Positions 2,885 through 37,297 of a stretch of DNA of 38,956 bases are shown here, piece after piece (positions within the stretch are counted from its first letter, which is position 1; every line of letters starts with the position of its first letter). The stretch spans positions 1 to 38,956 of the forward strand of contig CALZHT010000018.1 in the NCBI GenBank assembly GCA_945787445.1, written 5' to 3'. The stretch is from an uncultured Desulfobulbaceae bacterium (GTDB taxonomy: Bacteria > Desulfobacterota > Desulfobulbia > Desulfobulbales > CALZHT01). Under the pieces are notes generated by a model. That model was not told the DNA's origin. It worked only from the letters and a program-made list of their open reading frames with translations, and did no database searches. Both the position numbers and the translations under genes were made by a program.

Positions 2885-4309
2885 TTATTGAACAATAAGC
2901 AGAATTTTTGTGCTGATCATTGGGACAAGACCTAGCAGGATCATGAATACAGTGAGGATGGCAAGGCTTGATTGCTGGACAAAACTGACCTCGAAAACCA
3001 TGGGGCCGGCTGTCGGCTGCAGAATATAGGCCTCCTTAATCAGCAGCAGATAATAGTATAGGGATACCGTGGAATTCAGGGCGGCAAAGATAACCATAAA
3101 GTAATATCCTTCCTGTGCTGCAGAGGCAAACAGCATGAATTTTCCGATAAATCCTGCCAGAGGTGGGATGCCGGCCAGGGAAAACATGCTGAGTAGTAAA
3201 ATAGCGGCAAGAGTCGGACTCTGTTTTCCGAGGCCGCGCAGCGAGGCAAATTCCTCTGTCCTTTTCTGGCTGACAATTGAGATAATGAAAAATGTTGCAT
3301 AATTGGCAGCAGCGTAAATCAGCAGATAATAAATTATGGAAGCCCTGCCCATTTCCGCCTGGCCGGCCAGGGCCAGAAGAATATATCCGGCCTGGGCGAT
3401 TGAGGAGTAGGCCATGAATCGGCATAAATTCTTCTGTTTCAAGGCGCCGAGATTGCCGACGGTCATGGTGGCACCGGCCAGAAGCAGAATGAGATACTGC
3501 AGCCGAGGATGGAGGGGGGCCAGCGGGCCATAGAGCAGAACGATCAGGAAGGCAATGGCGGTGGCCTTTGACGACACCGATATAAAGGCGGTAACCGGGG
3601 TTGGCGCGCCCTCATAAACATCCGGAGCCCACATATGAAACGGGAAAAGCGTGAGTTTGAAGCCAATGGCTGCAAAGATAAAAAGGAGTCCCAAAAAGAG
3701 CAATGGGTGCAGGGGGTATTGTGTTGCAAAGGCCAGAATGTTTACAAAACGCAGGCTGCCCACCGCCCCATAAATAAAGGAGTAGCCAAACAGCAGGATG
3801 CCTGTTGAAAGGGCGCCCATAACGATGAATTTGGTGGAGGCCTCTGCCGACAGATCATCGCCTTTCCTGAAAGCGCTCAGGACATACAAAGGAATTGTGG
3901 CCAGTTCCATACCGATAAATAAGGTTAGCAGGCCGGTGGCGGAAACCACGGTGAACATGCCGAAGGTACAGAAAAGAACAATACCGTAAAATTCCCCCAT
4001 TGCCCGCATGGGCCCTCGAAAATTCCCTTTTTCAGTGAAGTAATATCTGGAAAGTAACACGGTAAAAAAAGCGGAAATCACAAAAATCTGTTTAAACAGG
4101 AGTGCGAGACCGGATACCTGATAGGTGCCGAAAAAAACAACGGTCCGGTCGTATGGCAGACAAAGCAGCAGGATAAAATTGAACAGCAGGCCGGACCAGG
4201 TCAGCTGAAACGTGACAACGGGTTCCCGCTTCCTGCTGAACAGGTCAATTCCAAGCACAGTAAACCCCTGCAGAAGGATAAAAAGATCAGGGAGGAGCAG
4301 ACTGTTCAT
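2885..4309 (-). CDS. nuoN: Complex I subunit N (ND2-type antiporter-like)
   Basis: This 474-residue integral membrane protein has about 14 hydrophobic helices and the proton-channel signature of the Mrp/ND2/4/5 family. A central helix pair carries FKLTLFPFHMWAPDVYEGAPTPVTAF, which includes the conserved lysine and the PFHxWxPDxYEGAP motif. It forms one of the three antiporter-like proton channels in the membrane arm of complex I. It is the last gene of the minus-strand operon, starting four bases after the nuoM stop at 4314. Length is normal for the family. No clear Rho-independent terminator follows in the 98 bases before the convergent regulator gene. The AP(T)P and lysine motifs separate it from NuoM and NuoL, so the assignment is firm. 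Confidence 0.96.
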   Translation of the reverse strand: MNSLLLPDLFILLQGFTVLGIDLFSRKREPVVTFQLTWSGLLFNFILLLCLPYDRTVVFFGTYQVSGLALLFKQIFVISAFFTVLLSRYYFTEKGNFRGPMRAMGEFYGIVLFCTFGMFTVVSATGLLTLFIGMELATIPLYVLSAFRKGDDLSAEASTKFIVMGALSTGILLFGYSFIYGAVGSLRFVNILAFATQYPLHPLLFLGLLFIFAAIGFKLTLFPFHMWAPDVYEGAPTPVTAFISVSSKATAIAFLIVLLYGPLAPLHPRLQYLILLLAGATMTVGNLGALKQKNLCRFMAYSSIAQAGYILLALAGQAEMGRASIIYYLLIYAAANYATFFIISIVSQKRTEEFASLRGLGKQSPTLAAILLLSMFSLAGIPPLAGFIGKFMLFASAAQEGYYFMVIFAALNSTVSLYYYLLLIKEAYILQPTAGPMVFEVSFVQQSSLAILTVFMILLGLVPMISTKILLIVQ

Positions 4310-4313
4310 AGCA

Positions 4314-5825
4314 TTACCGCGTCACATTGTTGACAATCGGCTCGATTGCGCTGTTCACCAGGTTGATTATCCAGCCCGGCAGTATGCCCATTCCACAGAT
4401 CAGGAATACCAGGATGGCAATGGGAAGTTTTTCAACCAGAGTCGCATCGGATAACGCATTGAATTTCTCATTGAGAGGGCCGTTGATCGCGAAATTGGCT
4501 GAACGAATAATATATACTGCTGAAATAACAATGGAGAGCACGGCCAAAACCGTGCAGATCCTGTTGATGGGATTAGCATTGGCAAAAGAACCGATGAATA
4601 TGGTTGCTTCGGCCACAAATCCGGAAAGACCGGGAAGACCCAGACCGGTCAGCCCGGCAATCACAAAGGCAACGGACAAGAACGGCATAACCTTCATGAG
4701 GCCGCCCATTTCATGGATTTGCCTGGTCCGGGTCCGGCTGTAAATCATGCCGATCAGGGCGAAAAAAAGGGCGGTCATCAGACCGTGGGAGACCATCTGT
4801 AGAACAGCACCTTTCAGACCGACATAGGTCATGGCCAGCAGGCCGAACAGGACCAGGCCGCAATGGGATACCGATGAGTAGGCGGTAATGTATTTCAGAT
4901 CGGTCTGGCGGATTGCCCCAAAGGCGCCATAGACTATATTGATGGTCACCAGCACCAGAAAAAATTCCACCCACATTTGTGCTCCTTCCGGCATCAGGTA
5001 CATGGCCACCCGCAGGCAGCCATAGCCGCCCAGCTTCATCAAGACTCCGGCGTGCAGCATGGACACGGCAGTCGGGGCCGAGGCATGACCGTCCGGCGAC
5101 CAGGTATGGAACGGAAACAGGCCGCCCAACAAGCCGAAGCCGATAAACAGGGCTGGGAATCCCCACACCTGCAGGGATTCCGGAAATCGTATCCGGGAAA
5201 GTTTCAATATATCAAAACTGGCTATGCCGGATTCATAGTACATGGCCAGAATACCGGCAAAGATAAGGGCGGATCCGGCCACCAGCATGAGGGTCAGTTT
5301 CATGGCCGAGTATTCCTTGTCCCCGGTTCCCCAGATGCCGATCAGCAGGTACATGGGGAGGACCGCAACTTCATAGAATAAAAACAGGGTAAAAAGATCA
5401 AAAGAGACAAAGACGCCATAGACCCCGCCTACCAGTACATTCAGTAGAATAAAGAACTCCTTGGCCTGCTCTTTAAGCTCCCAACTGGCCAGCACCCCAC
5501 AGAAGATTACGATGCCGGTCAACAGCAGCATCAGAACCGAGATCCCATCCACCCCAATATTGTAGGCGATGTTCAGCATCGAAAACCAGGGAACATTTAA
5601 AGTGAAATACAGCACGGTATACCGGGTATCGACGCCGGTTTCAGCTAAAGAAACCCTGGCAGCAAACAGCAAGGTGAGCCAGATAATCAAGACGAGGTTG
5701 AATCCTGAACCGGTCAACGATATTTTTTTTATCAGCTGATGGTTCGCCCGGCCGACCGGCACGATAAGCATGCCGGTAAGAAACGGCAGCAGCCAGATAG
5801 ATGTGAGTAAGGTCGATCCGTCCAT
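4314..5825 (-). CDS. nuoM: Complex I subunit M (ND4-type antiporter-like)
   Basis: This 503-residue polytopic membrane protein has the family hallmarks of NuoM: the early conserved glutamate in LFLFYEVAVLPMYLLIGIWG and the central LFPFHTWSPDGHASAPTAVSMLHAGVLMKLGGYG segment with a channel lysine. It provides a proton-translocation half-channel pair in the membrane arm. The start codon is separated from the upstream nuoL stop by 138 bases, most of which is a palindromic repeat element at 5854-5962; this interrupts the otherwise tight operon. Its stop is four bases from nuoN. The ribosome binding site before 5825 is weak (AAAGA at long spacing), which could mean translation depends on local structure. 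Function is certain at family level. Confidence 0.96.
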   Translation of the reverse strand: MDGSTLLTSIWLLPFLTGMLIVPVGRANHQLIKKISLTGSGFNLVLIIWLTLLFAARVSLAETGVDTRYTVLYFTLNVPWFSMLNIAYNIGVDGISVLMLLLTGIVIFCGVLASWELKEQAKEFFILLNVLVGGVYGVFVSFDLFTLFLFYEVAVLPMYLLIGIWGTGDKEYSAMKLTLMLVAGSALIFAGILAMYYESGIASFDILKLSRIRFPESLQVWGFPALFIGFGLLGGLFPFHTWSPDGHASAPTAVSMLHAGVLMKLGGYGCLRVAMYLMPEGAQMWVEFFLVLVTINIVYGAFGAIRQTDLKYITAYSSVSHCGLVLFGLLAMTYVGLKGAVLQMVSHGLMTALFFALIGMIYSRTRTRQIHEMGGLMKVMPFLSVAFVIAGLTGLGLPGLSGFVAEATIFIGSFANANPINRICTVLAVLSIVISAVYIIRSANFAINGPLNEKFNALSDATLVEKLPIAILVFLICGMGILPGWIINLVNSAIEPIVNNVTR

Positions 5826-5853
5826 GATTTTATTTTCGTGTCTTTCCCCATCC

Positions 5854-5962
5854 TGTAAGCGTTTACAGGTGCCGTAGATGCGTGTGATCAGGGTGATCAG
5901 CGATAGCCCGTTATGCTGGTTACCCGGAGCGCGCGCAGATGCGGGGCCTGTGATCGCTTACA
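5854..5962. repeat. Intra-operon palindromic element 1 (nuoL/nuoM gap)
   Basis: This 109-base element has imperfect inverted arms. The left arm starts TGTAAGCGTTTACAGG and the right arm, read on the other strand, starts TGTAAGCGATCACAGG. It ends two bases before the nuoL stop codon, so it lies directly downstream of nuoL in the direction of transcription. It shares with the elements at 8304-8413 and 10606-10758 a short AGATG box present in direct rather than inverted orientation in both arms, and a central core near GATAGCCCG. It should fold as a long stem in the nuo mRNA. Confidence 0.75.
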
Positions 5963-5963
5963 A

Positions 5964-7937
5964 CTAAATAGGTAAACGTCCCAACACATACAGCAGAATA
6001 ATCCCGATAGCCGTGGCTCCAAGATACACGGTAAGCTGGCCGTTCTGGGCCAGCCTGATGCCGGTGCCGCAAATATGCAGGAACCTGCCGACCATGTTCA
6101 CCGCTCCATCCACGATATGTCTGTCAAACCATTTGATTGGTGCGGCAATGTAACTGAAAATGATCTTATGAGTCACAAAGAGATACAGTTCATCAATGTA
6201 TAATTTATTGACAACAAGCTGATACCCTATACCCCTCCGACGGGTAAGCAGCCGGACATGCGAAAGGTCTCCCCGGCCGTATAAATACCAGGCAATGATA
6301 ATACCTGTTACCGCCAGCAGGTTGGCGCACACCGGCAGCCATAGAGGATGGCCAGGAAGGAGTTGCTTATCTGCAGCCCAAACCATGGGTGACGAGAAAT
6401 ATGCACTGAAAATTTCTTTCGAAAAATAACCGGCGACAACCGTTGGGATTGCTAAAATGACGATGGAAAAACTCATCAGCGGATCTTCCGTTTTCAGTTG
6501 ACGGCCGAAAGTCGTTTGCCCGTGAAAAACCATGAAAAAAAGGCGGAACATATATAAGGCGGTGATGCCGCTGCTGAGCAGACCGACGCCAAATGTAAGA
6601 TAGTGCCCGGATTGCCAGGCCCCCAGGAGAATTTCGTCTTTGGACCAGAAACCGGCAAAGGGGAAAATGCCGGAAATTGCCAGGCAGGCGGCCAGCATGG
6701 ACCAATAGGTTTTCGGCATGGCTTTCCTGAGACCGCCCATCCTGCCGATATCGTTCGTGTGTATCGTATGAATGATGGCCCCGGCTCCGAGGAACAGCAG
6801 ACATTTGTAAAAAGCATGGGTGAAAATGTGGAACATCGAAGCACTGTAGCCCAGTGGATTGATGCCGGCCGTAGTGGGATTATCCACCACTTGAGACGCT
6901 CCCAGTGAAAACATCATATAACCCAGTTGTGAGAGGGTCGAATAGGCAAGAATTCGTTTAATATCATGCTGGGTGAGGGCGATGACTGCCGCGAAAAGTG
7001 TGGTAAAGGCGCCGACCAACTGCACGATGGTCAGGGTTAGGGCAGAGGCGGCAAAGAGCGGGAACATGCGGGCCGTCAAAAAAACTCCGGCCACAACCAT
7101 GGTGGCGGAATGGATAATTGCCGAAACAGGGGTGGGCCCTTCCATGGCGTCCGGCAGCCAGATATGCAGGGGGAACATGGCCGACTTTCCCCAACCACCG
7201 GCAAAAATCAGCAGGCAGGAAAGGGCCAGGAGATTGACCCCAATTCCCTTGACCATGAACATTTTATTTAAAATGGCGGCGGTTTCGGGAGCATTGAGAT
7301 CCTGAAAATCAAAATTTCCTATGAAATAACCGACCATGATTATGCCGAGAAGAAAAAATGCATCGGCAAAACGGGTGATGATAAATGCCTTTTTACCGGC
7401 CGTCACTGCTGCCGGCTTATGATACCAGAAGCTGATAAGAACATAGGATGACACCCCCACTAACTCCCAGAAAACATACATCTGGAAAATATTGGTTGCC
7501 ACCACCAGCCCCAGCATTGAAAAGGCGAAGAAGGAAAGCAGAGCAAAGAATCTGCCGAAACCCTCATCACCTTCCATATAACCAAGGGAATAAATCTGAA
7601 CCAGAAAACCGATCACCGTGATAACGACAATCATCATCACCGAGATGGGATCCAGATATATACCCATGCGGACAGTCAAATCCGGCGAGATGTTGAGCCA
7701 GTCGAATTGATTTACCAGCAATGTCTTGTCCGGAAAAAGGTGCGGCCGAGCCAGCACCCTGCGATAATACCCGTAAGTAATACCGATACCGCAAACCATG
7801 GATAAGCCGGAAAACAGGACCGACAGGAGGCCGGCCGCCCGGCGGTTGTATCTGCCCAGCCAGAGGCCGATGATCAGGAAAGCGAGAAATGGCCAGAGGA
7901 GAACCAGATAGCTGTAGGAGAGAAACAGATCAGCCAT
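5964..7937 (-). CDS. nuoL: Complex I subunit L (ND5-type antiporter-like)
   Basis: This 657-residue protein is the distal proton-pumping subunit of complex I. It shows the ND5 signature: a conserved glutamate in MYVFWELVGVSSYVLISFWY, the GKSAMFPLHIWLPDAMEGPTPVSAIIHSATMVVAG segment with channel lysine and histidines, and a long C-terminal extension that includes the lateral helix region. I start it at 7937 (MADLFLSY) rather than at an upstream in-frame codon at 8003. A GGAGG lies six bases before 7937, and the longer version would overlap most of the nuoK C-terminus. The chosen start overlaps the nuoK stop by eight bases, which is typical of translational coupling. Downstream it is followed within two bases of the stop by palindromic element 1. 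Confidence 0.96.
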   Translation of the reverse strand: MADLFLSYSYLVLLWPFLAFLIIGLWLGRYNRRAAGLLSVLFSGLSMVCGIGITYGYYRRVLARPHLFPDKTLLVNQFDWLNISPDLTVRMGIYLDPISVMMIVVITVIGFLVQIYSLGYMEGDEGFGRFFALLSFFAFSMLGLVVATNIFQMYVFWELVGVSSYVLISFWYHKPAAVTAGKKAFIITRFADAFFLLGIIMVGYFIGNFDFQDLNAPETAAILNKMFMVKGIGVNLLALSCLLIFAGGWGKSAMFPLHIWLPDAMEGPTPVSAIIHSATMVVAGVFLTARMFPLFAASALTLTIVQLVGAFTTLFAAVIALTQHDIKRILAYSTLSQLGYMMFSLGASQVVDNPTTAGINPLGYSASMFHIFTHAFYKCLLFLGAGAIIHTIHTNDIGRMGGLRKAMPKTYWSMLAACLAISGIFPFAGFWSKDEILLGAWQSGHYLTFGVGLLSSGITALYMFRLFFMVFHGQTTFGRQLKTEDPLMSFSIVILAIPTVVAGYFSKEIFSAYFSSPMVWAADKQLLPGHPLWLPVCANLLAVTGIIIAWYLYGRGDLSHVRLLTRRRGIGYQLVVNKLYIDELYLFVTHKIIFSYIAAPIKWFDRHIVDGAVNMVGRFLHICGTGIRLAQNGQLTVYLGATAIGIILLYVLGRLPI

Positions 7938-8235
7938 GGAGGGCCTCCAATTCACGGACATCCAGGTTCTTTCGGTGTCTGTACATAGAGATAATGATAG
8001 CAAGGGCTACGGCCATTTCACAGGCCGAGACTGCCATGACAAAAACAGGAAAAATTGCCCCGGCTGTTGGATCTGCTGTTGTAAAACGGGCAAAGGCAAT
8101 GAAGTTGATATTGGCTGCGTTGAGAATGATTTCAATGGACAAAAGTATGCCGATGAGATGTCTACGCGTTAAAACGCCGTAAACACCGATAGCGAAAAGA
8201 AAAAGCGTCAGGATGAGGCAGTTTTGTAAAGTCAT
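7930..8235 (-). CDS. nuoK: Complex I subunit K (ND4L-type)
   Basis: This 101-residue three-helix membrane protein has the ND4L pattern, with the conserved glutamates of the E-channel in SIEIILNAANINFIAF and VSACEMAVALAII. It transmits conformational and charge changes between the quinone site and the antiporter-like subunits. I chose the ATG at 8235 (MTLQNCL), which gives the standard family length and has AAAGG eight bases upstream. An in-frame codon at 8271 would add 12 residues translated from a repeat arm, which I regard as artefactual. Its 3' end overlaps nuoL by eight bases. The 183-base gap upstream, towards nuoJ, is occupied by palindromic element 2. Confidence 0.95.
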   Translation of the reverse strand: MTLQNCLILTLFLFAIGVYGVLTRRHLIGILLSIEIILNAANINFIAFARFTTADPTAGAIFPVFVMAVSACEMAVALAIIISMYRHRKNLDVRELEALHG

Positions 8236-8252
8236 TATGCATACCTTTTGTT

Positions 8253-8413
8253 GTAACTGATCACGGGGCATGAACTAAATTTAGTGTCTGCACCCTTTTG
8301 TTCGTAATTGATCACAGGGTGGTGCAGATGCGCGAAAGAGGCTTAAGAGTCTATAGCCCGCCTATGTGCGTGAGCCGATGACAAAGCAGATGCGCCACTC
8401 TGTGATCAATTAC
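8253..8413. repeat. Intra-operon palindromic element 2 plus an extra half arm
   Basis: The full element is 8304-8413. Its left arm starts GTAATTGATCACAGGGTGG, and the right arm on the opposite strand starts GTAATTGATCACAGAGTGG; about 24 of 29 arm positions match. A GCAGATGCG box occurs in the same orientation in both arms, breaking the symmetry exactly as in elements 1 and 3. The central core contains CTATAGCCCGCCTATG. A further lone arm (GTAACTGATCACGGGG) begins at 8253, followed by the perfect 12-base palindrome ACTAAATTTAGT. The element begins six bases beyond the nuoJ stop codon, on its downstream side. Confidence 0.8.
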
Positions 8414-8418
8414 CTTTA

Positions 8419-8928
8419 CTACTTATCCTTGCGGGCGATTACTACTGCTCCTACCAGTGAGATAAACAGCAGCACGGAGACTATTTCAAAGGGCACAATA
8501 AACCCGTCACTGGTGGTGTCTAACAGCCGCAAGCCAATCTGCTCAAGCCCGCCGGCCTCCTCGTCGGCCTGCATAGCAACATTTTCAGGTTGTATGGAAT
8601 CGATGACCAGATAAAAAATTAGTCCGCCTAATGCTCCGGAGATTGCAAGCCCCCAGACCTTTTGCCCGGGACCTGGCGCAAGGGATTCTTCTCCCAAGCG
8701 GGTTGTTAAGAGAATTATTATCAGGATAAAAACAACTATCCCGCCGATATAGACCATGATCTGGGCCAGAGCGACAAATTCCATCTGCAGGAGGATATAG
8801 AGGGCGGCGGTGACAAAAAAGGACCCAATGAGTGAAATTGCCCCGTGCAGCAGGTTGGGCAGGATTACTACAAGCAAGGAAGATAACACTAGAAGTCCTG
8901 CCAGTCCGTAAAACAGAAAATCATGCAT
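8419..8928 (-). CDS. nuoJ: Complex I subunit J (ND6-type)
   Basis: This 169-residue protein has five predicted helices and the conserved NuoJ stretch ALAQIMVYIGGIVVFILIIILLTTR, where the third helix carries the pi-bulge region (MVYIGGIVVF) important for conformational coupling to the quinone site. It sits in the membrane arm between NuoH/A and NuoK. Start and upstream stop overlap as ATGA with nuoI at 8928-8930, which supports this start and translational coupling. The C-terminus (GAVVIARKDK) matches the family's conserved end. Just after the stop, transcription enters palindromic element 2. Confidence 0.95.
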   Translation of the reverse strand: MHDFLFYGLAGLLVLSSLLVVILPNLLHGAISLIGSFFVTAALYILLQMEFVALAQIMVYIGGIVVFILIIILLTTRLGEESLAPGPGQKVWGLAISGALGGLIFYLVIDSIQPENVAMQADEEAGGLEQIGLRLLDTTSDGFIVPFEIVSVLLFISLVGAVVIARKDK

Positions 8929-9473
8929 CAGCCCCTTCCCTCCTTATTGTTCAAAATGAAAATCAGAGAATCACGGTCATAGGCAGCTAGCTCAAAATCA
9001 TGTCCCATCCTGATGGCGTCAAAGGGACAGACCTCGATACAGAGATTGCACTGGGTGCATTGGTTCAAACGATACACATAACGGCCCAACACCTTCCGGC
9101 CGGCAATATTTCTGGTGGCATGGACGGATATTGTGCCATTAGGACAGGCTTTTTCGCATAAACCGCAGGCTGTGCAAGAATGTTCACCATCTTCATCGTG
9201 CACCATGATTACCCGCCCCCGAAAGCGGGGAAACATTTTAAGGGTCTCCCTGTTTTCAGGATATGGCTGGGTGACAATTTTTCCGGGATTCACAAAATAA
9301 CTGCCGGTCAGTTTCATGCCTTTGAGAAGTGAATAAAAACCGCTGCCTATTTTGTAAAGATACTGTGACAATGACAAGCCAGGCTTTACCGTTGAACTCT
9401 GTCTACTCTGCAGCAACTCAGCCGCATGCTCTGAAAGAACCGTATGTTTCTTAATGATACTTTCTTCTATCAT
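8928..9473 (-). CDS. nuoI: Complex I subunit I, 2x[4Fe-4S] ferredoxin-like
   Basis: This 181-residue peripheral-arm subunit carries two ferredoxin-type cluster motifs, CTACGLCEKACPNG and CTQCNLCIEVCPFDAI, which bind clusters N6a and N6b that lead electrons to NuoB. The family motif FRGR(V) and a PYPENRETLKMFPRFRG lead-in are present. I start at 9473 (MIEESII) because this ATG overlaps the nuoH TGA as ATGA. A longer in-frame reading from 9605 would merely be nuoH sequence in another frame. It lacks obvious membrane segments. Since NuoE, NuoF and NuoG are not encoded nearby, NuoI may be the point where an external reductant such as ferredoxin donates electrons; that is inference. Confidence 0.95.
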   Translation of the reverse strand: MIEESIIKKHTVLSEHAAELLQSRQSSTVKPGLSLSQYLYKIGSGFYSLLKGMKLTGSYFVNPGKIVTQPYPENRETLKMFPRFRGRVIMVHDEDGEHSCTACGLCEKACPNGTISVHATRNIAGRKVLGRYVYRLNQCTQCNLCIEVCPFDAIRMGHDFELAAYDRDSLIFILNNKEGRG

Positions 9474-10558
9474 GGCAAGATCCAGCCTTGCGCCACAAAG
9501 ATGGCCCCCAGCACCAAGACGATTATGTTTATCGGCAGCAGAACCTTCCATTCCAGTTCCATCAACTGGTCGACCCGTAGCCGTGGAAAGGACCAGCGGA
9601 ACCACATGAAAAGAAAGATGATGAAACAGGTCTTCAGGAAAAACCAGACAAAACCCGGCACGGCGTCGAAAAGAAGATCCACCGTCCCTAATCCAATCTG
9701 TGGGGCCAGGAAGCCGCCAAGGAAAAAAGTTGTGGTCAGGGTGCCTGCCACAAACATATTGACAAACTCGGCCAGAAAGAACATGGAAAAGCTGATCCCT
9801 GAATATTCAGTAGTAAAGCCGCCGGTGAGTTCGGACTCGGCCTCGCTGATATCAAAGGGGCCGCGATTCAATTCAGCAGTGGACGAAATCAGGTACATGA
9901 TAAAGGCGACCAGTCCCAGACCCGGCAACTTGAAAATCCACCAGTCCAGGACGGTGCCCTGCTGAGATAAAACAATTTCCCTGAGAGAGGCAGTTCCGCT
10001 GACCAGGACGATTAACAGCATGATAATCGCCAGAGAAATTTCATAGGAGATCAGCTGTGCGCCGGAACGCATGGCGCCCAGCAGGGAGTATTTGTTGTTG
10101 GAAGACCAACCGGCCAGGAGAATGCCGAAAACGGACAACCCTGAAATTGCTATCACATATATGACGCCACCATTCAGATCCGTAACCTGCAGGTGATGAT
10201 CAAAAGGAATGATGGTCATCACCAGAAAAGACGCGGTTGCCGGTAAGATGGGAGCCAGAAAAAAACCAAAAGAATCCGCCCCGGCTGGTTTTAACACCTC
10301 TTTGAATAAGAGTTTCAGGCCATCGGCTACAGACTGCAGAGTACCGTGAAAGCCAACCCGCATGGGTCCGAGCCTGGCCTGAAAATGTGCCGCCACCTTG
10401 CGTTCCATCCAGACCAGGAAAACCGGGATCAGGGCCACGGTGATTAGCACCGCGGCAATACCCAGAATCCCGTTGATAATATATGCAGAGGAGGCTGGAA
10501 AATTGGCCCTGACCAGGTCGCCGATGGCATTGGTAGTTGGAAAAGCGATATCGTTCAT
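9470..10558 (-). CDS. nuoH: Complex I subunit H (ND1-type)
   Basis: This 362-residue membrane protein forms the quinone-chamber base of complex I. Conserved ND1 stretches are visible: ERKVAAHFQARLGPMRVGFHGTLQSVADGLKLLFKE near the N-terminus and NRGPFDISEAESELTGGFTTEYSG in the middle, which supplies acidic residues of the E-channel. I start at the ATG at 10558 (MNDIAF), which has GAAAGG seven bases upstream. An in-frame GTG at 10636 would add 26 residues encoded by palindromic element 3 and is rejected. The stop overlaps the nuoI start as ATGA. The gene follows nuoD after a 200-base gap filled largely by element 3. Confidence 0.95.
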   Translation of the reverse strand: MNDIAFPTTNAIGDLVRANFPASSAYIINGILGIAAVLITVALIPVFLVWMERKVAAHFQARLGPMRVGFHGTLQSVADGLKLLFKEVLKPAGADSFGFFLAPILPATASFLVMTIIPFDHHLQVTDLNGGVIYVIAISGLSVFGILLAGWSSNNKYSLLGAMRSGAQLISYEISLAIIMLLIVLVSGTASLREIVLSQQGTVLDWWIFKLPGLGLVAFIMYLISSTAELNRGPFDISEAESELTGGFTTEYSGISFSMFFLAEFVNMFVAGTLTTTFFLGGFLAPQIGLGTVDLLFDAVPGFVWFFLKTCFIIFLFMWFRWSFPRLRVDQLMELEWKVLLPINIIVLVLGAIFVAQGWILP

Positions 10559-10605
10559 CTGTGTACCTTTCAGTGCCCCACTTGCATCTAAAATTGATCT
10601 GAAGT

Positions 10606-10758
10606 GTAATCGTTCAGAGACACCCCAGATGTGCACCCTAAAGGGTATAAACTTTCGCAGACTGGCGAACTATAGTAGTCCTATGTGAGCCAGGCTGATC
10701 GCGTGCACCCCAAGGGCATTTGCTTCGCGGCACAGATGGGGTGTCTCTGAACGATTAC
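10606..10758. repeat. Intra-operon palindromic element 3 (nuoD/nuoH gap)
   Basis: The two arms, 10606-10634 and 10730-10758, are almost perfect inverted repeats: both begin GTAATCGTTCAGAGACACCC when read inward. The only arm mismatch is the CAGATG box, which again appears in direct orientation in both arms. The interior holds ACTATAGTAGTCCTATGTGAGCC, resembling the core of element 2. The outer end abuts the nuoD stop codon with no intervening base (stop at 10759-10761). The 153-base unit is expected to fold into a strong stem in the polycistronic mRNA. Confidence 0.85.
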
Positions 10759-11910
10759 TCATCTGTCAATATCCGGAATCACCAGATCAAGAGTTGAAAT
10801 GATGGTAATTAAATCAGCTATCTTATAGCCAACGGCCATCTCGTTAATCGCACTGAGATTCGAAAAGCTGGGCGAACGGTATTTAAGCCGATAGGGCTTT
10901 GCTGTTCCATCTGCCACCATATAAATCCCCAGCAATCCTCTTGCCGTTTCCACCTGTGAGAAATAGCTGCCTGTGGGAATTCTGTATTTGCTGAACTCTT
11001 TGGAACGGTAAGGCCCGGTTGGAAAAGTTTCCATGGCCTGCTGCACTATTTTTATCGACTGGGCCATCTCCTCCATGCGTACGAGGTAACGGTCAAAACT
11101 GTCGCCCCCTTGTCCCACCGGTACTTCAAAATCAAAACGCTCATAAATCGAGTAGGGATTATTTTTCCGCCCATCATATTGAACACCCGAACCGCGCAGG
11201 ACAGGACCGGTGCAGCCGTAAGACAGCGCCTTTTCTCTAGACAGGACTCCTATGCCTCTGGTTCTTTCCTGAAAAATAATGTTATCAGTCAGCAGCGTTT
11301 GGTATTCATCCAAGGCACGTTTGAGCCGTTCGATAACCGTTGCGACTCTGGGGAGGAAGGTGTCTGGAACATCTGCAGATGAGCCCCCTGGCCTGAAAAA
11401 ATTCATGGTCAACCGGTTGCCGCATACTTCTTCAAAAATGTCGGTGATCATCTCTCTTTCTTTAAAACCATAGAGAAATGCGGTGACCGCGCCCATATCC
11501 ATGCCCAACACCCCCCACCAGAGAAGATGGGACTGTATGCGCTGCAGCTCGCAGAGCATTACCCGGATATATTCCCCCCGCTCCGGAACACCGATCCCCA
11601 GCCCCTTTTCTATGGCCATGCACAAACCGAGGTTGTTCATAAAACTTGAGAGATAATCCAACCGGTCAGTCAGGTGGATATTCTGCAGATAGGTCTGATT
11701 TTCAGCCATTTTTTCGATGGCCCGGTGCACATAGCCCAGATGCGGCACAACCTCCTGCACGTTTTCACCATCCAGTCTGAGCACCAGTCGCAGTACCCCA
11801 TGGGTACCGGGATGCTGCGGCCCCATATTCAGATAATATTCCTCCGTAGTGGCTTCAGCTGCCGCTGTATCGGTGAAACCGGGAGGTGCTTGTAAGTGAT
11901 TTATTTCCAT
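10759..11910 (-). CDS. nuoD: Complex I subunit D (49 kDa)
   Basis: This 383-residue peripheral-arm subunit descends from the NiFe-hydrogenase large subunit and lines the quinone-binding cavity. It shows the family N-terminus NMGPQHPGTHGVLRLVLRLDGE, with the quinone-site histidine loop, then YVHRAIEKMAE, DRLDYLSSF and the conserved C-terminus D(L)VIPDIDR. Hydrogenase cysteines are absent, as expected for complex I. It starts two bases after the nuoBC stop. Its stop touches palindromic element 3. Length is slightly short of the roughly 400 usual for stand-alone NuoD but all core blocks are present. Confidence 0.96.
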   Translation of the reverse strand: MEINHLQAPPGFTDTAAAEATTEEYYLNMGPQHPGTHGVLRLVLRLDGENVQEVVPHLGYVHRAIEKMAENQTYLQNIHLTDRLDYLSSFMNNLGLCMAIEKGLGIGVPERGEYIRVMLCELQRIQSHLLWWGVLGMDMGAVTAFLYGFKEREMITDIFEEVCGNRLTMNFFRPGGSSADVPDTFLPRVATVIERLKRALDEYQTLLTDNIIFQERTRGIGVLSREKALSYGCTGPVLRGSGVQYDGRKNNPYSIYERFDFEVPVGQGGDSFDRYLVRMEEMAQSIKIVQQAMETFPTGPYRSKEFSKYRIPTGSYFSQVETARGLLGIYMVADGTAKPYRLKYRSPSFSNLSAINEMAVGYKIADLITIISTLDLVIPDIDR

Positions 11911-11912
11911 GA

Positions 11913-13145
11913 TTAATACGGTCTCTTCACGATCCGGCTGGGATCTTTAAAATTCTTCCTCAGGGGATGACCGGGGAAATCCTCTTTCAGGAAGAGGCGC
12001 CTGAGGTCTGGGTGGCCTCTAAAGATAATGCCGAACAGATCATACACCTCCCGCTCGTGCCATTCCGCCCCCCTGTACAGATGCGAGAGAGTCTCTATTT
12101 CCGGTTGTTCCCCGGCAACCGGACACCGGACAAAAATCTTATGGCCATGCCGGGTAGACAGCAGGTGAACCAGAATATGAAAAAAATCGTGCTGGTCAAT
12201 GGCGGTTACTTGCAGCAAAAGGTCCATTTGCAGAGTCGCATGAGTTTTCAGTAAAGTAAGCAGGGAGAGGTAGTGGTCCTTTGTGACTGCAAATTCCAGA
12301 AGAGTCTCGCTGGTAAGTTTTTTATCGTTTTCAGCATCCGTATTTTCCTGCTTAACTTGTTTCACCTCCGGGAATACTTCATGCACAATTGCATAGATAT
12401 CCTGGTTGGCTAAACCCGATTGCACAACTGGCCGCCTGGGAACCTCAGGAAACTTATCTTTGGGCCGGCGAACCGCCTTATACGGTACATAGTCTGGATT
12501 CTCTGCCTTAAAGCGTTCCCTGGCCGTGGTCATCCCGGCCTGTTTTTGTGTTTCGATTTCTACCCATTCTTTCTTGGAATTGCTGTGGATATCTATGCAG
12601 GGCGGGGTTTCGAATTCTTTTACTTTCCAAGGATTATGGCGCCCTTCCTTTCTGATCAGTTTTTGCAGGTGCATAATGCCATACAGCAAAGCTTCCGGCC
12701 TTGGCGGACAACCGGGCACGTATACATCCACCGGTATAAGCCGGTCACCGCCTCGGACTATGGAGTAGGAATCGTAATAAAATGGTCCTCCGGAAATGGA
12801 ACAGGATCCCATGGCAATCACATATTTGGGACCGGGCATTTGTTGGTAGAGAGTTACAAGGTTATTACCCATCTTCTCGACAATAGTGCCAGCAAGCACA
12901 ATAAGATCGGCCTGGCGGGGGGTGGCCCGTGCCACCTCGACCCCGAAACGGGCCCAGTCGTGTCGGGAAGCGCCGGTGGCCATCATTTCCATGGCACAGC
13001 AGGCCGTGCCATACACTAACGGCCAAAGAGAATTGGCCCTGGCCCAACCGACAATAAATTCAATACCATTGACCAGATGTCTGCCGCCGGGAAGAGGGTC
13101 TAATATCTTTGGGATTGTTTCCGTTACTATTCCTGCTACTCCCAT
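11913..13145 (-). CDS. nuoBC: Fused complex I subunits B and C
   Basis: One uninterrupted 410-residue frame joins two subunits that are separate in most bacteria. Residues 1-165 are NuoB, with the four cysteines of cluster N2: C49, C50 (TACCAM), C115 (GSCSISGG) and C146 (PGCPPRPE). Residues about 260-410 are NuoC (30 kDa type), recognisable by [23 protein letters not shown] and [21 protein letters not shown] charged linker of roughly 95 residues connects them. The start at 13145 has AAGGAG seven bases upstream and overlaps the nuoA end by ten bases. In the assembled complex B and C are close together, so a fusion is structurally reasonable. The better-known fusion, in enterobacteria, is C-D. 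No frameshift is needed to join the two parts. Confidence 0.93.
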
Positions 13146-13519
13146 ATCAGAACTCCTTTCTTCCAGGCATAAACAAGGCCGGATAAAAGTATGAACAGGA
13201 AAATTCCCAGTTCGACAAACAATACAGCCGGGCTGGTCTCTGTAATCGATCCAGCGGTCACTTTCTTGAATATTGTTACACAGGGGAAAAGAAAGAGAGA
13301 TTCAATATCGAAAATCAGAAAGAGCAGCGCAAAAATGTAATACCCGACTTTAAACTGGATCCGGGCATCCCCGATGGGCTCCTCGGAACACTCATATGCT
13401 TCCACTTTGCGTCGGCTGTGTGGGGTTTTGAAGGCAAGCAATTTTGAGGTAATAATTGCCCCGCCGACAAAGAGTGTGCCAAGAAAAATAGCAATGCCGA
13501 TAATTGCGTAATTCGCCAC
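13136..13519 (-). CDS. nuoA: Complex I subunit A (ND3-type)
   Basis: This 127-residue three-helix membrane protein opens the operon. It contains the ND3 landmarks: the loop segment [42 protein letters not shown], with the conserved Y-E-C(G/S) loop that moves during the active/deactive transition in homologues and the FDIE acidic motif in the second helix. The start is a GTG at 13519 with AAGGTCGGG upstream. The gene overlaps nuoBC by ten bases. The promoter must lie in the 466-base gap before it, which also holds a half arm of the palindromic family and two GTTAC palindromes that face the divergent CBS gene. Confidence 0.95.
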
Positions 13520-13573
13520 AATTTATACCCGACCTTTTTTGCTGGGCCTGCTTTCAGAAAAAGCTGCCTGGTT

Positions 13574-13590
13574 GTAATTGATCACAGGGC
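13574..13590. repeat. Solitary half arm of the nuo palindromic family
   Basis: GTAATTGATCACAGGG at 13574 repeats the outer arm of element 2 exactly, 55 bases upstream of the nuoA start codon. I find no matching inverted arm nearby, so this is a solo or decayed copy. It lies where a nuo promoter or leader would be expected. Confidence 0.6.
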
Positions 13591-13805
13591 AAGGCTAGTT
13601 AACTCAATATCGTGGGTAATTTTTTTACCTAACGGCCCCCCTATGGAATAAAAATTGCTAAATAAATTATTGCGTCGCTTGTTTTATGTATTAGCAATTA
13701 AGGTGCCAGACGGCAGGATTGGCTGTAAGTGTTTGTATGTCTTAAATAAAACCAGGACTTGCAAAATTATGAAAAGGTTTTATTCCCCAAACACAACAAG
13801 AAGAT

Positions 13806-17373: not shown

Positions 17374-17431
17374 CCAGGGGTACATCGAAAACATTAAGTA
17401 TTGACATCCCGCATTAATGAAACTGAAACTG
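17374..17431 (+). repeat. 58-base direct repeat, left of toxin-antitoxin cassette
   Basis: This segment, starting CCAGGGGTACATCGAAAACA and ending AAACTGAAACTG, recurs at 18078-18135 with about 54 of 58 positions identical. The copies lie 704 bases apart and enclose the complete toxin-antitoxin unit with its promoter. A perfect 18-base palindrome, GAAACTGTATACAGTTTC at 17425-17442, straddles the right end of this copy. Confidence 0.85.
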
Positions 17432-18077: not shown

Positions 18078-18135
18078 CCAGGGGTACATCGAAAACATAA
18101 TGTATTGACATCCCCCATTAATAAAACTGAAACTG
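18078..18135 (+). repeat. 58-base direct repeat, right of toxin-antitoxin cassette
   Basis: Second copy of the repeat at 17374-17431, differing at about four positions and followed, as in the first copy, by GTTTCGTTT after a short gap. It lacks the perfect palindrome: GAAACTGTATACAGTTTC is reduced to GAAACTGATCTGTTTC. It lies 116 bases upstream of the GH43 gene and carries a TTGACA hexamer that could serve that gene, though no good -10 follows. Confidence 0.85.
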
Positions 18136-19248: not shown

Positions 19249-19313
19249 AGTTTCCGAATTGGAAACAACTTGTTCCAGCATCCGGAAAGTTACAGACTTT
19301 GCGGATGGGAACT
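19249..19313 (-). repeat. 65-base palindromic element, copy a
   Basis: Read on the minus strand this element begins AGTTCCCATCCGCAAAGTC and ends TTCGGAAACT. A 65-base copy lies at 33021-33085 (about 80% identical by eye) and a half copy at 37267. The ends AGTTCCC and GGAAACT form short terminal inverted repeats, and TTTCC/GGAAA forms an inner hairpin. It starts two bases after the GH43 stop codon. The following 19314-19576 interval carries a further small hairpin (CGATCGTT/AACGAT near 19353) and no gene. Confidence 0.8.
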
Positions 19314-19576
19314 AATTAAGCAAGGGTTTACCAAGTCTGTCTGTCAATCATCGATCGTTTTGTTGAACGATAATCGTCAGCAGTTGAGTATACGGACAAC
19401 GGTCCGACGGGCCAAGGGGAAAAACATAAAACAATAAGCAGGTATCCGATCCCTCTCTTTTTCATTTCTGCATCGAACACCTCCTCTGCTATAGTACAAA
19501 TATCTTGGTTTTCGTCAAACAGGTGTTCCCTCAACCTGATCCTTAAATTTTCGAGCATGAAAAGGAGGTTTCTCCC

Positions 19577-20491: not shown

Positions 20492-20638
20492 CTATACATA
20501 ACGCAAAAAGTCCTATCCATCCTGCCATGCTGCGTCACTCGCTGCGGTGCCTGCTCAGCCCGCTACAGCGGGACTCCGCCGGCTCCTCGCTCGTTCCTTG
20601 CCTGTTCAATCGGCAAGAACTTTTTGCGTCATGTATAG
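20492..20638. repeat. MITE-like element with terminal inverted repeats, copy A
   Basis: This 147-base element starts CTATACATAACGCAAAAAGT and ends, on the other strand, CTATACATGACGCAAAAAGT, giving 20-base inverted ends with one mismatch. The GC-rich core includes the hairpin CCCGCTACAGCGGG followed by ACTCCGCCGGCTCCTCGCTC. The same core is found inverted at 23650-23811. No coding capacity and no clear target-site duplication were seen. Confidence 0.82.
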
Positions 20639-23649: not shown

Positions 23650-23811
23650 TATACATAGCGACATAAGTTCGAGGCACCCAGCCAGGCAAGCGCCCTGCGG
23701 GCATAAAGAACGAGCGAGGAGCCGGCGGAGTCCCGCTGTAGCGGGATGAGCAGGCAGCACAGCAAGTGACAAAGTGTGATGGGATTTATTGACTTAGGAC
23801 GTTGTGTATAG
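23650..23811. repeat. MITE-like element, copy B (inverted relative to copy A)
   Basis: This 162-base element has diverged ends, TATACATAGCGACATAAGTT on the left and CTATACACAACGTCCTAAGT on the right read inward. Its core carries the reverse complement of the copy A core: GAGCGAGGAGCCGGCGGAGT then CCCGCTGTAGCGGG, about 40 bases with a single mismatch. It fills most of the 23548-23867 gap. The SH3-domain gene's leader begins within its right end. Confidence 0.8.
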
Positions 23812-27332: not shown

Positions 27333-27447
27333 AATTTCCTCATCCTGTAAAACGCAGCTCTTTTTTTACGTAACGGCTTTTCTTTTTGCAGAAAACCTTG
27401 ACCAGATTTTGTCAAACAACTAAATACTACCTGAATTCGTGAGCGTT

Positions 27448-27561
27448 CGTCAGCGGTCTGAATGCGCGAAGGGAACGAATTCGATTATCCTTGTGTGATA
27501 TCGAAGAGTTTCCGACAGGTAAGCGAGCCTGCGAGACTCCGAAGCAGGCGGGCCGCTGACG
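27448..27561. repeat. Palindromic element with CGTCAGCGG ends
   Basis: CGTCAGCGG at 27448-27456 pairs with CCGCTGACG at 27553-27561. Inner hairpins include GCCTGC/GCAGGC near 27528-27547. The plus strand also carries CAGGTAAGCGAG..GCGAG..CCGA, the block order seen on the minus strand at 14515-14546. It occupies the gap between the helicase and the aromatic amino acid gene (27333-27825), where I see no other feature. Confidence 0.65.
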
Positions 27562-27825
27562 GGCACCCCGAAGGGCGGCGTACCAACAGTAAATAAAAAC
27601 ATGGGATATGGTGTCATGACTATATTCTTCCATCATATCTAAGGTCCCGTATGAAATTTATCGTTTGCCGTCACGGATTCAGGTACTATGGAGATTGCTT
27701 GATACCAACAAGGCCGCATGCGATTCAAGGCTGGTGTGCCGGCCCGGGAGATATCAAGAAATTCCAACAACCATGGCGTCGGCACCTCAATCCATGCGGG
27801 GCCGATAACCGAAAGGGGAGACTGT

Positions 27826-32595: not shown

Positions 32596-33018
32596 ATGAA
32601 TTACACGATTATAAAAGAACTCAATGTGGTTTATGTAGAATGTGCAGGGGATATTCGCGAAGATGATATTATCGAACAAGCCATGCAGCAGCTCCATGAT
32701 CCTGAATATAGTCAGGACATGAATACTTTGTACAATTTTCAAAATGGTGTTTTCTCGGGTGGCGTAGAAAAGCTTAAAAAATTGGCAAAGAAAATGTCTG
32801 ATCCGAATGTTATACAAACACCCTCAAAAACAGCCATGGTTGCCCCAAATGATCTTGAATACGGGCTGTCAAGGATGTACTCCATGCTGGCTGTCGGTTC
32901 TTTGGTGGAATACGAGGCCTTCCCTACAATGAAAGAAGCGCTCGATTGGCTGGGTATACCTGATTCGTTGTTACAAAAATACATGGAAAAAGCATCCGAT
33001 CAACCGCCTGAAGACTAA
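32596..33018 (+). CDS. SpoIIAA/STAS-like small protein
   Basis: This 140-residue soluble protein starts with alternating strands (YTIIKELNVVYVECAGDI) and a helix-strand pattern that resembles SpoIIAA-like/STAS folds: DDIIEQAMQQLHDPEYSQDMNTLYNFQNGVFS, later KTAMVAPNDLEYGLSRMYSMLA and VEYEAFPTMKEALDWLGI at the end. The closing F-x-T-x-x-E-A-x-x-W-L-G is common in that group. I cannot identify a phosphorylatable serine with confidence. It follows the membrane protein by 19 bases. A 65-base palindromic repeat begins two bases after its stop. Confidence 0.7.
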   Translation: MNYTIIKELNVVYVECAGDIREDDIIEQAMQQLHDPEYSQDMNTLYNFQNGVFSGGVEKLKKLAKKMSDPNVIQTPSKTAMVAPNDLEYGLSRMYSMLAVGSLVEYEAFPTMKEALDWLGIPDSLLQKYMEKASDQPPED

Positions 33019-33020
33019 CA

Positions 33021-33085
33021 AGTTCCCATTCGGAAAGTCGCAGACTTGGAGGATGCTGGAATTATTTGTTTCCAGTTCGGAAACT
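33021..33085 (+). repeat. 65-base palindromic element, copy b
   Basis: Begins AGTTCCCATTCGGAAAGTCG and ends TTTCCAGTTCGGAAACT. Same length as the inverted copy at 19249-19313, with about 52 of 65 positions matching by eye. It sits two bases after a stop codon, as copy a does. The remaining gap to 33376 holds only the leader of the next gene: a TTTACA at 33292 with an AT-rich stretch 17 bases on could be its promoter, but this is weak. Confidence 0.82.
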
Positions 33086-37200: not shown

Positions 37201-37266
37201 CAGGCCAGTAAGATACCTTCCCGGCTTTTTGCCATGATCATTAAATGACATCTACAGGTACTACGT

Positions 37267-37297
37267 AGTTCCCATCCGGAAAGTCGAAGACTTTGCG
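37267..37297 (+). repeat. 65-base element family, truncated copy c
   Basis: AGTTCCCATCCGGAAAGTCG followed by AAGACTTTGCG matches the left half of copies a and b, then the similarity stops. It lies 66 bases after the radical SAM stop. The rest of the 37201-37520 gap contains a CCCC/GGGG hairpin near 37338-37361 and the manC leader. Confidence 0.7.

Follow-up and report, generated by a model that had tools for sequence, protein, structure and literature searches.

Three long palindromes lie between genes of the complex I (nuo) operon of an uncultured Desulfobulbaceae bacterium, and they are very probably independent insertions of a non-autonomous miniature inverted-repeat transposable element (MITE) of IS66 type, mostly retained at stop codons. 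The family to which they belong is a real and abundant one of sulfur-cycling bacteria, with IS66-type ends and an unusual conserved fold on one strand. The window, i.e., the whole stretch of DNA analysed, is a contig of 38,956 nucleotides (C18; CALZHT010000018.1) from a genome of 4.46 Mb in 227 contigs. Its nuo operon is on the minus strand in the order A, B/C, D, H, I, J, K, L, M, N according to NCBIfam, which confirms the gene blocks proposed in an earlier, sequence-only reading. The palindromes, of 107, 110, and 153 bp, separate nuoL/nuoM, nuoJ/nuoK, and nuoD/nuoH, respectively, and were found where that reading had placed them (precise bounds in Table 1), starting 2, 5, and 0 bases from the stop codons of nuoL, nuoJ, and nuoD, within the proposed 0-5 bases. 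Their + strands fold far better than dinucleotide shuffles (z of -10.2, -7.2, and -8.3).

Family, ends and mobile unit

The three palindromes had been taken for members of one family with related ends and core, and the wider search bears this out. A covariance model based on 60 diverse copies, used together with BLAST, gave 65 matches in the genome of the window (E up to 0.1), and matches to the model are present in 85 of 112 genomes and in 42 of 49 genera of the order, Desulfobulbales/Deltaproteobacteria according to the record titles, often with at least 34 copies per genome, as well as in 13 genomes outside it. Pattern matches fall in records titled Desulfobulbaceae, Desulfurivibrio, and Deltaproteobacteria. 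No Rfam family matched the window at gathering thresholds, nor did any match the element in 12 loci at E up to 1, what did match in these loci being a csp region, a tRNA, and, by chance, a miRNA. Searches of the literature turned up no account of the MITE family. Three tandem copies of the palindrome, about 120 bp apart, are seen in another genome of the order, G028 (L303, 1501-1848), and in loci of other lineages (L300, L301, L304, L321-L345) the core loops differ (AAGGC / AACACAG or TAGGCATC / GATAACACC), with the outer arms and AGAT boxes largely kept. In the window itself, positions 27439-27569 give a weak match to the model (20.8 bits, E 0.0036) with inverted arms of its own, between two divergently arranged long open reading frames (ORFs); this could be a remote relative of the family.

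Many copies have an extra arm about 45 bp leftward, so that the unit reads GTAA-outer arm ... GTAA-palindrome-TTAC, and at least one copy (L238) consists of the palindrome only. The units measure 107-196 bp, carry no transposase gene and are bounded by GTAA...TTAC terminal inverted repeats, the outer arm and the right end being of the GTAASYGWTCA type. Among 121 copies, 8-bp target duplications are perfect in 18 and agree in at least 7 of 8 positions in 31, where offset controls give expectations of 0 and 0.2. GTAA ends and 8-bp target duplications are hallmarks of IS66 (PMC12888890, PMC3281130). Moreover, another genome of the order holds an intact element of 1.7 kb (L213) encoding an IS66-like transposase of 475 aa, with MITE-like ends (GTAACTATCCAGCTTG; target duplication GAATATTT) whose first 12-16 bases are identical to those of the MITE. 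The IS66 subgroup with a single transposase gene of ~475-510 aa (L213, L215, and the copies of genome G110) thus shares ends and duplication length with the MITE, which differs in being geneless and short and in its conserved folded core, absent from L213. From the ends, the duplications and L213, the elements are assigned to a MITE with IS66-type ends, which we infer to be moved in trans by IS66-like transposases. The IS66 element in the genome of the window (L079) was ruled out as a partner because its ends differ.

The elements had also been suspected of being REP-like mobile sequences tolerated at their sites. Mobility and tolerance stand, while the likeness to repetitive extragenic palindromes (REPs) does not. 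REPs and REPINs are likewise abundant extragenic palindromes, but REPs are of 20-40 bp and tagged by GTAG or CGTC (PMC3733652); the present elements are IS66-type MITEs instead, with a length of at least 107 bp, GTAA/TTAC ends and 8-bp duplications.

The insertion is most legible between nuoD and nuoH, where a perfect 8-bp duplication, TCATCTGT, flanks the unit. Its removal in silico gives ...GACAGATGAACGATATC, an ATGA stop/start overlap; the duplication would thus have doubled an ancestral overlap, so that both nuoD and nuoH kept their signals. In the nuoJ/nuoK unit the outer left arm is GTAACTGATCACGGGG, and the flanking 8-mers, CTTTTGTT and CTTTACTA, agree in 5 of 8 positions, as a decayed duplication adjoining the nuoK ribosome-binding site. 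The nuoL/nuoM copy has no clear target duplication, and its outer left arm is missing or decayed. A covariance-model scan found no copy in the nuoD regions of 17 relatives, and the nuo insertions therefore look lineage-specific; as a search for the nuoD 3' ends of these relatives gave no matches, this establishes only the absence of a copy near nuoD. NuoD of the window is 44-51% identical to NuoD of the 17 relatives, and a second nuoD lies elsewhere in the genome (G000:C25:23890-24990), which suggests that the window operon (2885-13519) is a divergent copy, possibly an acquired one. No nuoEFG was seen beside it.

The outer left arm, the 8-bp duplication, the nested hairpin module of the nuoD/nuoH copy and a solitary remnant upstream of nuoA, listed in Table 1, go beyond what the sequence-only reading had described.

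Table 1. Positions of the MITE copies and associated features in the window, and loci of a second MITE family
Feature	Position	Strand	Remarks
Palindromic MITE copy, nuoL/nuoM	5855..5961	+	nuoL stop at 5964; covariance model 46.4 bits
MITE unit, nuoJ/nuoK	8253..8413	+	nuoJ stop at 8419; outer left arm from 8253; palindrome 8304-8413; 93.3 bits
MITE unit, nuoD/nuoH	10563..10758	+	outer part 10563-10605; palindrome 10606-10758 with nested modules; 43.0 bits
Left target-duplication copy TCATCTGT	10555..10562	+	holds nuoH start, ATG 10558-10556 on the minus strand
Right target-duplication copy TCATCTGT	10759..10766	+	holds nuoD stop, TGA 10761-10759 on the minus strand
Nested hairpin module CACCCCAAGGGCATTTGCTTCGCGGCACAGA	10704..10734	+	BLAST matches at query 105-137; also in other repeat families of the genome
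Solitary arm-like remnant TTGTAATTGATCACAGGGCAAGG, upstream of nuoA	13572..13594	+	family D6
Second-family loci	L233, L235-L237, L239, L243, L245-L247		genome of the window

The folded strand and the AGATG box

In a MAFFT alignment of the copies, 27 of the 36 pairs of the helix change on both sides, and 95.4% of alignment cells pair, as against 24-41% when the partners are slid. The compensatory changes that the sequence-only reading had proposed to look for are thus present, and copies abound elsewhere in the genome and in related ones, so that its claims of a family and of a structure both hold. Chance hairpins, or ordinary intrinsic terminators belonging to no family, can be practically dismissed: hairpins after stop codons are common and the target 8-mers are T-rich, but the shared core, the genome-wide family, the target duplications and the covariation refute this explanation.

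Within the arms, an AGATG box had been noticed in direct, not inverted, orientation. The asymmetry is real, the left box being at least 90% conserved per column in the 60 diverse copies. In the fold CAGATG faces CAGATG, pairing as C-G, A-U, G.A, A.G, U-A, G-C, and the "direct" box is a tandem G.A mismatch within the helix; its conservation is accounted for by this motif in one folded strand. The search pattern that collected most aligned copies fixes GCGAAAGAGG and GACAAAGCAGAT, so that the conservation of these loops is partly ascertained, while the left AGATG, absent from the pattern, and all the stems are free of this effect. Furthermore, among the G110 copies, found by the model alone, the better-scoring ones mostly keep AGAT opposite AGAT despite different loops. 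A direct-repeat protein site is disfavoured, since two variants (L037 and L178) swap G to C in one arm and C to G in the other, keeping the pairing and losing the identity of the repeats.

The wobbles are one-sided: G.U exceeds A.C by 243 to 30 (by columns, 23 to 3), still by 124 to 30 without the three most wobble-rich pairs, and a tandem U.G/G.U is retained in 46 of the 60 copies. By this excess, it is the + strand, antisense to the nuo mRNA, whose folding is preserved, whether in RNA or in single-stranded DNA. Copies at sites shared across genomes allow 19 comparisons, some of them not independent, in which 29 compensated and 26 wobble-neutral arm changes stand beside 9 A.C and 10 other pairing breaks. 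The complementarity of the arms is upheld after insertion, whether by selection or by template switching, and the one-sided wobbles suggest that selection has at least some part in it; the most divergent shared-site pairs may be independent reinsertions.

The strand at issue bears on the proposal that the nuo copies are domesticated mRNA elements setting subunit ratios by processing or stability. Three copies occupy three intercistronic junctions of one operon, in the same orientation at the upstream stops, the fold is kept after insertion at shared sites, and ERIC-type MITEs can destabilise upstream transcripts, with effects on mRNA that depend on orientation (PMC2229807). On the other hand, the evolutionarily conserved fold is that of the antisense strand, the mRNA strand folds much worse in two of the three copies, the 17 relatives have no copy near nuoD, and the same stop bias is found at unrelated genes across the order. 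Control of complex I subunit ratios is therefore possible, but very unlikely, and is not the favoured reading. The likeliest role of the core is that of an RNA or single-stranded-DNA structure aiding the persistence or movement of the element, not that of a dedicated nuo regulator.

Position and orientation at stop codons

Copies of the family are shown (STATISTICALLY) to gather at stop codons, their right end facing the stop. In statistics that rest on simple ORF calls, 66 of 118 copies have their right end at most 8 bp from the stop codon of a gene that points towards it, as compared with about 4.8% of random non-coding positions at the same loci; the enrichment that had been suspected after stops is thus more general than the three nuo copies, all of which hug the upstream stop in the same orientation, could reveal. 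Copies hug the stop in 15 of 37 cases in the model-selected set, and in about 10 of 18 among the family-1 copies of the window's genome. Right-only exceeds left-only hugging by 58:5 (57:5 in a first count), and the density of hugging drops about 50-fold more than 8 bp past the stop. About 26 of the hugging copies use the TAA of their own GTAA as the stop. Where the duplication can be read (15 cases), the native stop always falls between -3 and +15 nt relative to the first base of the duplicated 8-mer, and the C-termini are altered by a few residues at most. On the folded strand, duplicated 8-mers are rich in T.

Such a distribution may arise by targeting or by retention. According to the former, the transposition machinery itself would direct insertion asymmetrically to stop-proximal DNA, guided by a cue such as an A-rich sense-strand 8-mer or a structure linked to transcription or translation, with selection playing a minor part. 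The sharp fall in density beyond 8 bp, the stop in or beside the duplicated 8-mer and the T-richness of the latter agree with this. The age of the copies speaks for retention. In the first data set 15 of 36 copies with a readable duplication (young) hug, as against 50 of 79 with a decayed one (p 0.04). Most copies in G110 carry a perfect or near-perfect duplication; of 19 young ones there, about 2 hug, and neither orientation is preferred (counts read by eye from a table). An IS66-like relative present in this genome in 14 copies, mostly with perfect duplications, shows no stop preference. Pooled figures, which combine different data sets, give p 0.0005 for the difference in hugging, and right:left is 2:3 as against 44:3 (p 0.008). 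Since younger copies hug less and the autonomous relative does not hug, retention is favoured, and targeting by an IS66 transposase is weakened as the main cause; we consider it unlikely.

Several points weigh against retention of an IS66-type MITE. The first set shows a rightward lean even among its young copies (14:2), as targeting would give; the G110 counts are small; the gene calls behind the stop statistics are simple ORFs; the conserved one-strand fold is not explained by retention alone; and an intact partner with matching ends was not found in the window's genome, although draft assemblies lose IS copies.

Under retention, insertion would be broadly intergenic, and a copy on a stop codon would do no harm, as either its own GTAA provides a TAA or the signals for stop, start and ribosome binding are doubled by the 8-bp duplication. 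Copies would then persist in the orientation that places the weaker-folding strand in the host mRNA. The nuo copies would most likely be insertions that have been retained and that put space into junctions formerly tight or overlapping. Both the location and the shape of the elements look selected.

A quite unlikely alternative is that the core acts as a bidirectional or antisense-strand terminator, or as a barrier, guarding the hugged gene against antisense transcription at its 3' end. The strong fold on the antisense strand, often followed by a T-rich 8-mer, and the 26 of 66 hugging copies that lie between convergent genes would suit it. However, 38 of the 66 lie in co-directional pairs, with no antisense gene reading in, and this orientation is not seen in a second family that has the same core.

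A core shared between families, and known systems

This second MITE family, in the genome of the window, has the ends CCTAAATTGAGCG...CGCTCAATTTAGG and 5-bp duplications (TTACA, ATATG, TTTGA, TCTTT), and carries the same folded core, GATGCGCGAAAGAGG ... GACAAAGCAGAT, in unrelated arms. Its 13 copies in that genome do not show the right-end stop bias, which disfavours the shared core as the cause of the orientation bias; the core would therefore travel between two kinds of ends, the stop bias belonging to the GTAA family. Other palindromic families of this genome (L003, L004, L013-L018), with ends CCCGCATTTCTCACAA and GATGGCGTCGCAAAAAGTCC, contain the same nested module of about 30 bp as the nuoD/nuoH copy, TGCACCCCAAGGGCATTTGCTTCGCGGCAC, and other small hairpins; repeat families seem to trade small modules with one another. 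Further repeats of the window include dispersed inverted repeats of the TAGTTCCCATCCGGAAAGTC type (19249-19318, 33016-33085, 37266-37297) and of the ACTTTTTGCG type (20492-20638), an 81-bp pair 3.1 kb apart (20519-20599 and 23705-23785) and a 58-bp direct repeat of 93% identity, 704 bp apart (17374-17431 and 18078-18135).

Integron attC sites are single-strand-folding palindromes that lie just after stop codons in one orientation. The likeness is shared by the present elements, but an attC reading was rejected, because the copies are single at unrelated genes, form no cassette arrays and have 8-bp duplications. The ERIC MITEs of Yersinia and the NEMIS/Correia MITEs of Neisseria are likewise short, non-coding mobile elements with long stem-loops, often downstream of or overlapping gene ends (PMC2674063, PMC2229807). 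They differ in their TA-type ends and unrelated sequence; in comparison, the stop bias of the present MITE is quantified, one-sided and age-dependent, and its core is common to two MITE families. Tiny palindromic modules nested in repeats are also known from cyanobacterial very small mobile repeats of the SDR5 type (PMC4390886, in part), which differ in sequence, the modules lying here inside several MITE families.

It can tentatively be considered that the core (CAGATG...GAAAGAGG-hairpin-CCGATGACAAAG-CAGATG on one strand) is an undescribed structured RNA or single-stranded-DNA module retained, oriented, at gene ends for a function there. If so, it would be a module kept folded antisense to the gene it abuts, for instance blocking antisense transcription or shaping the 3' end, and carried by MITEs with two types of ends and with 8-bp and 5-bp target duplications. 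The family places tens of copies per genome, in many genomes of one order, at the ends of ordinary genes, including those of core respiratory operons. With its many replicates, it offers a test case in which to ask how very small transposons end up on stop codons, whether overlapping genes can be parted harmlessly by an 8-bp duplication, and whether a conserved RNA-like module can pass on a mobile element from one transposase system to another.

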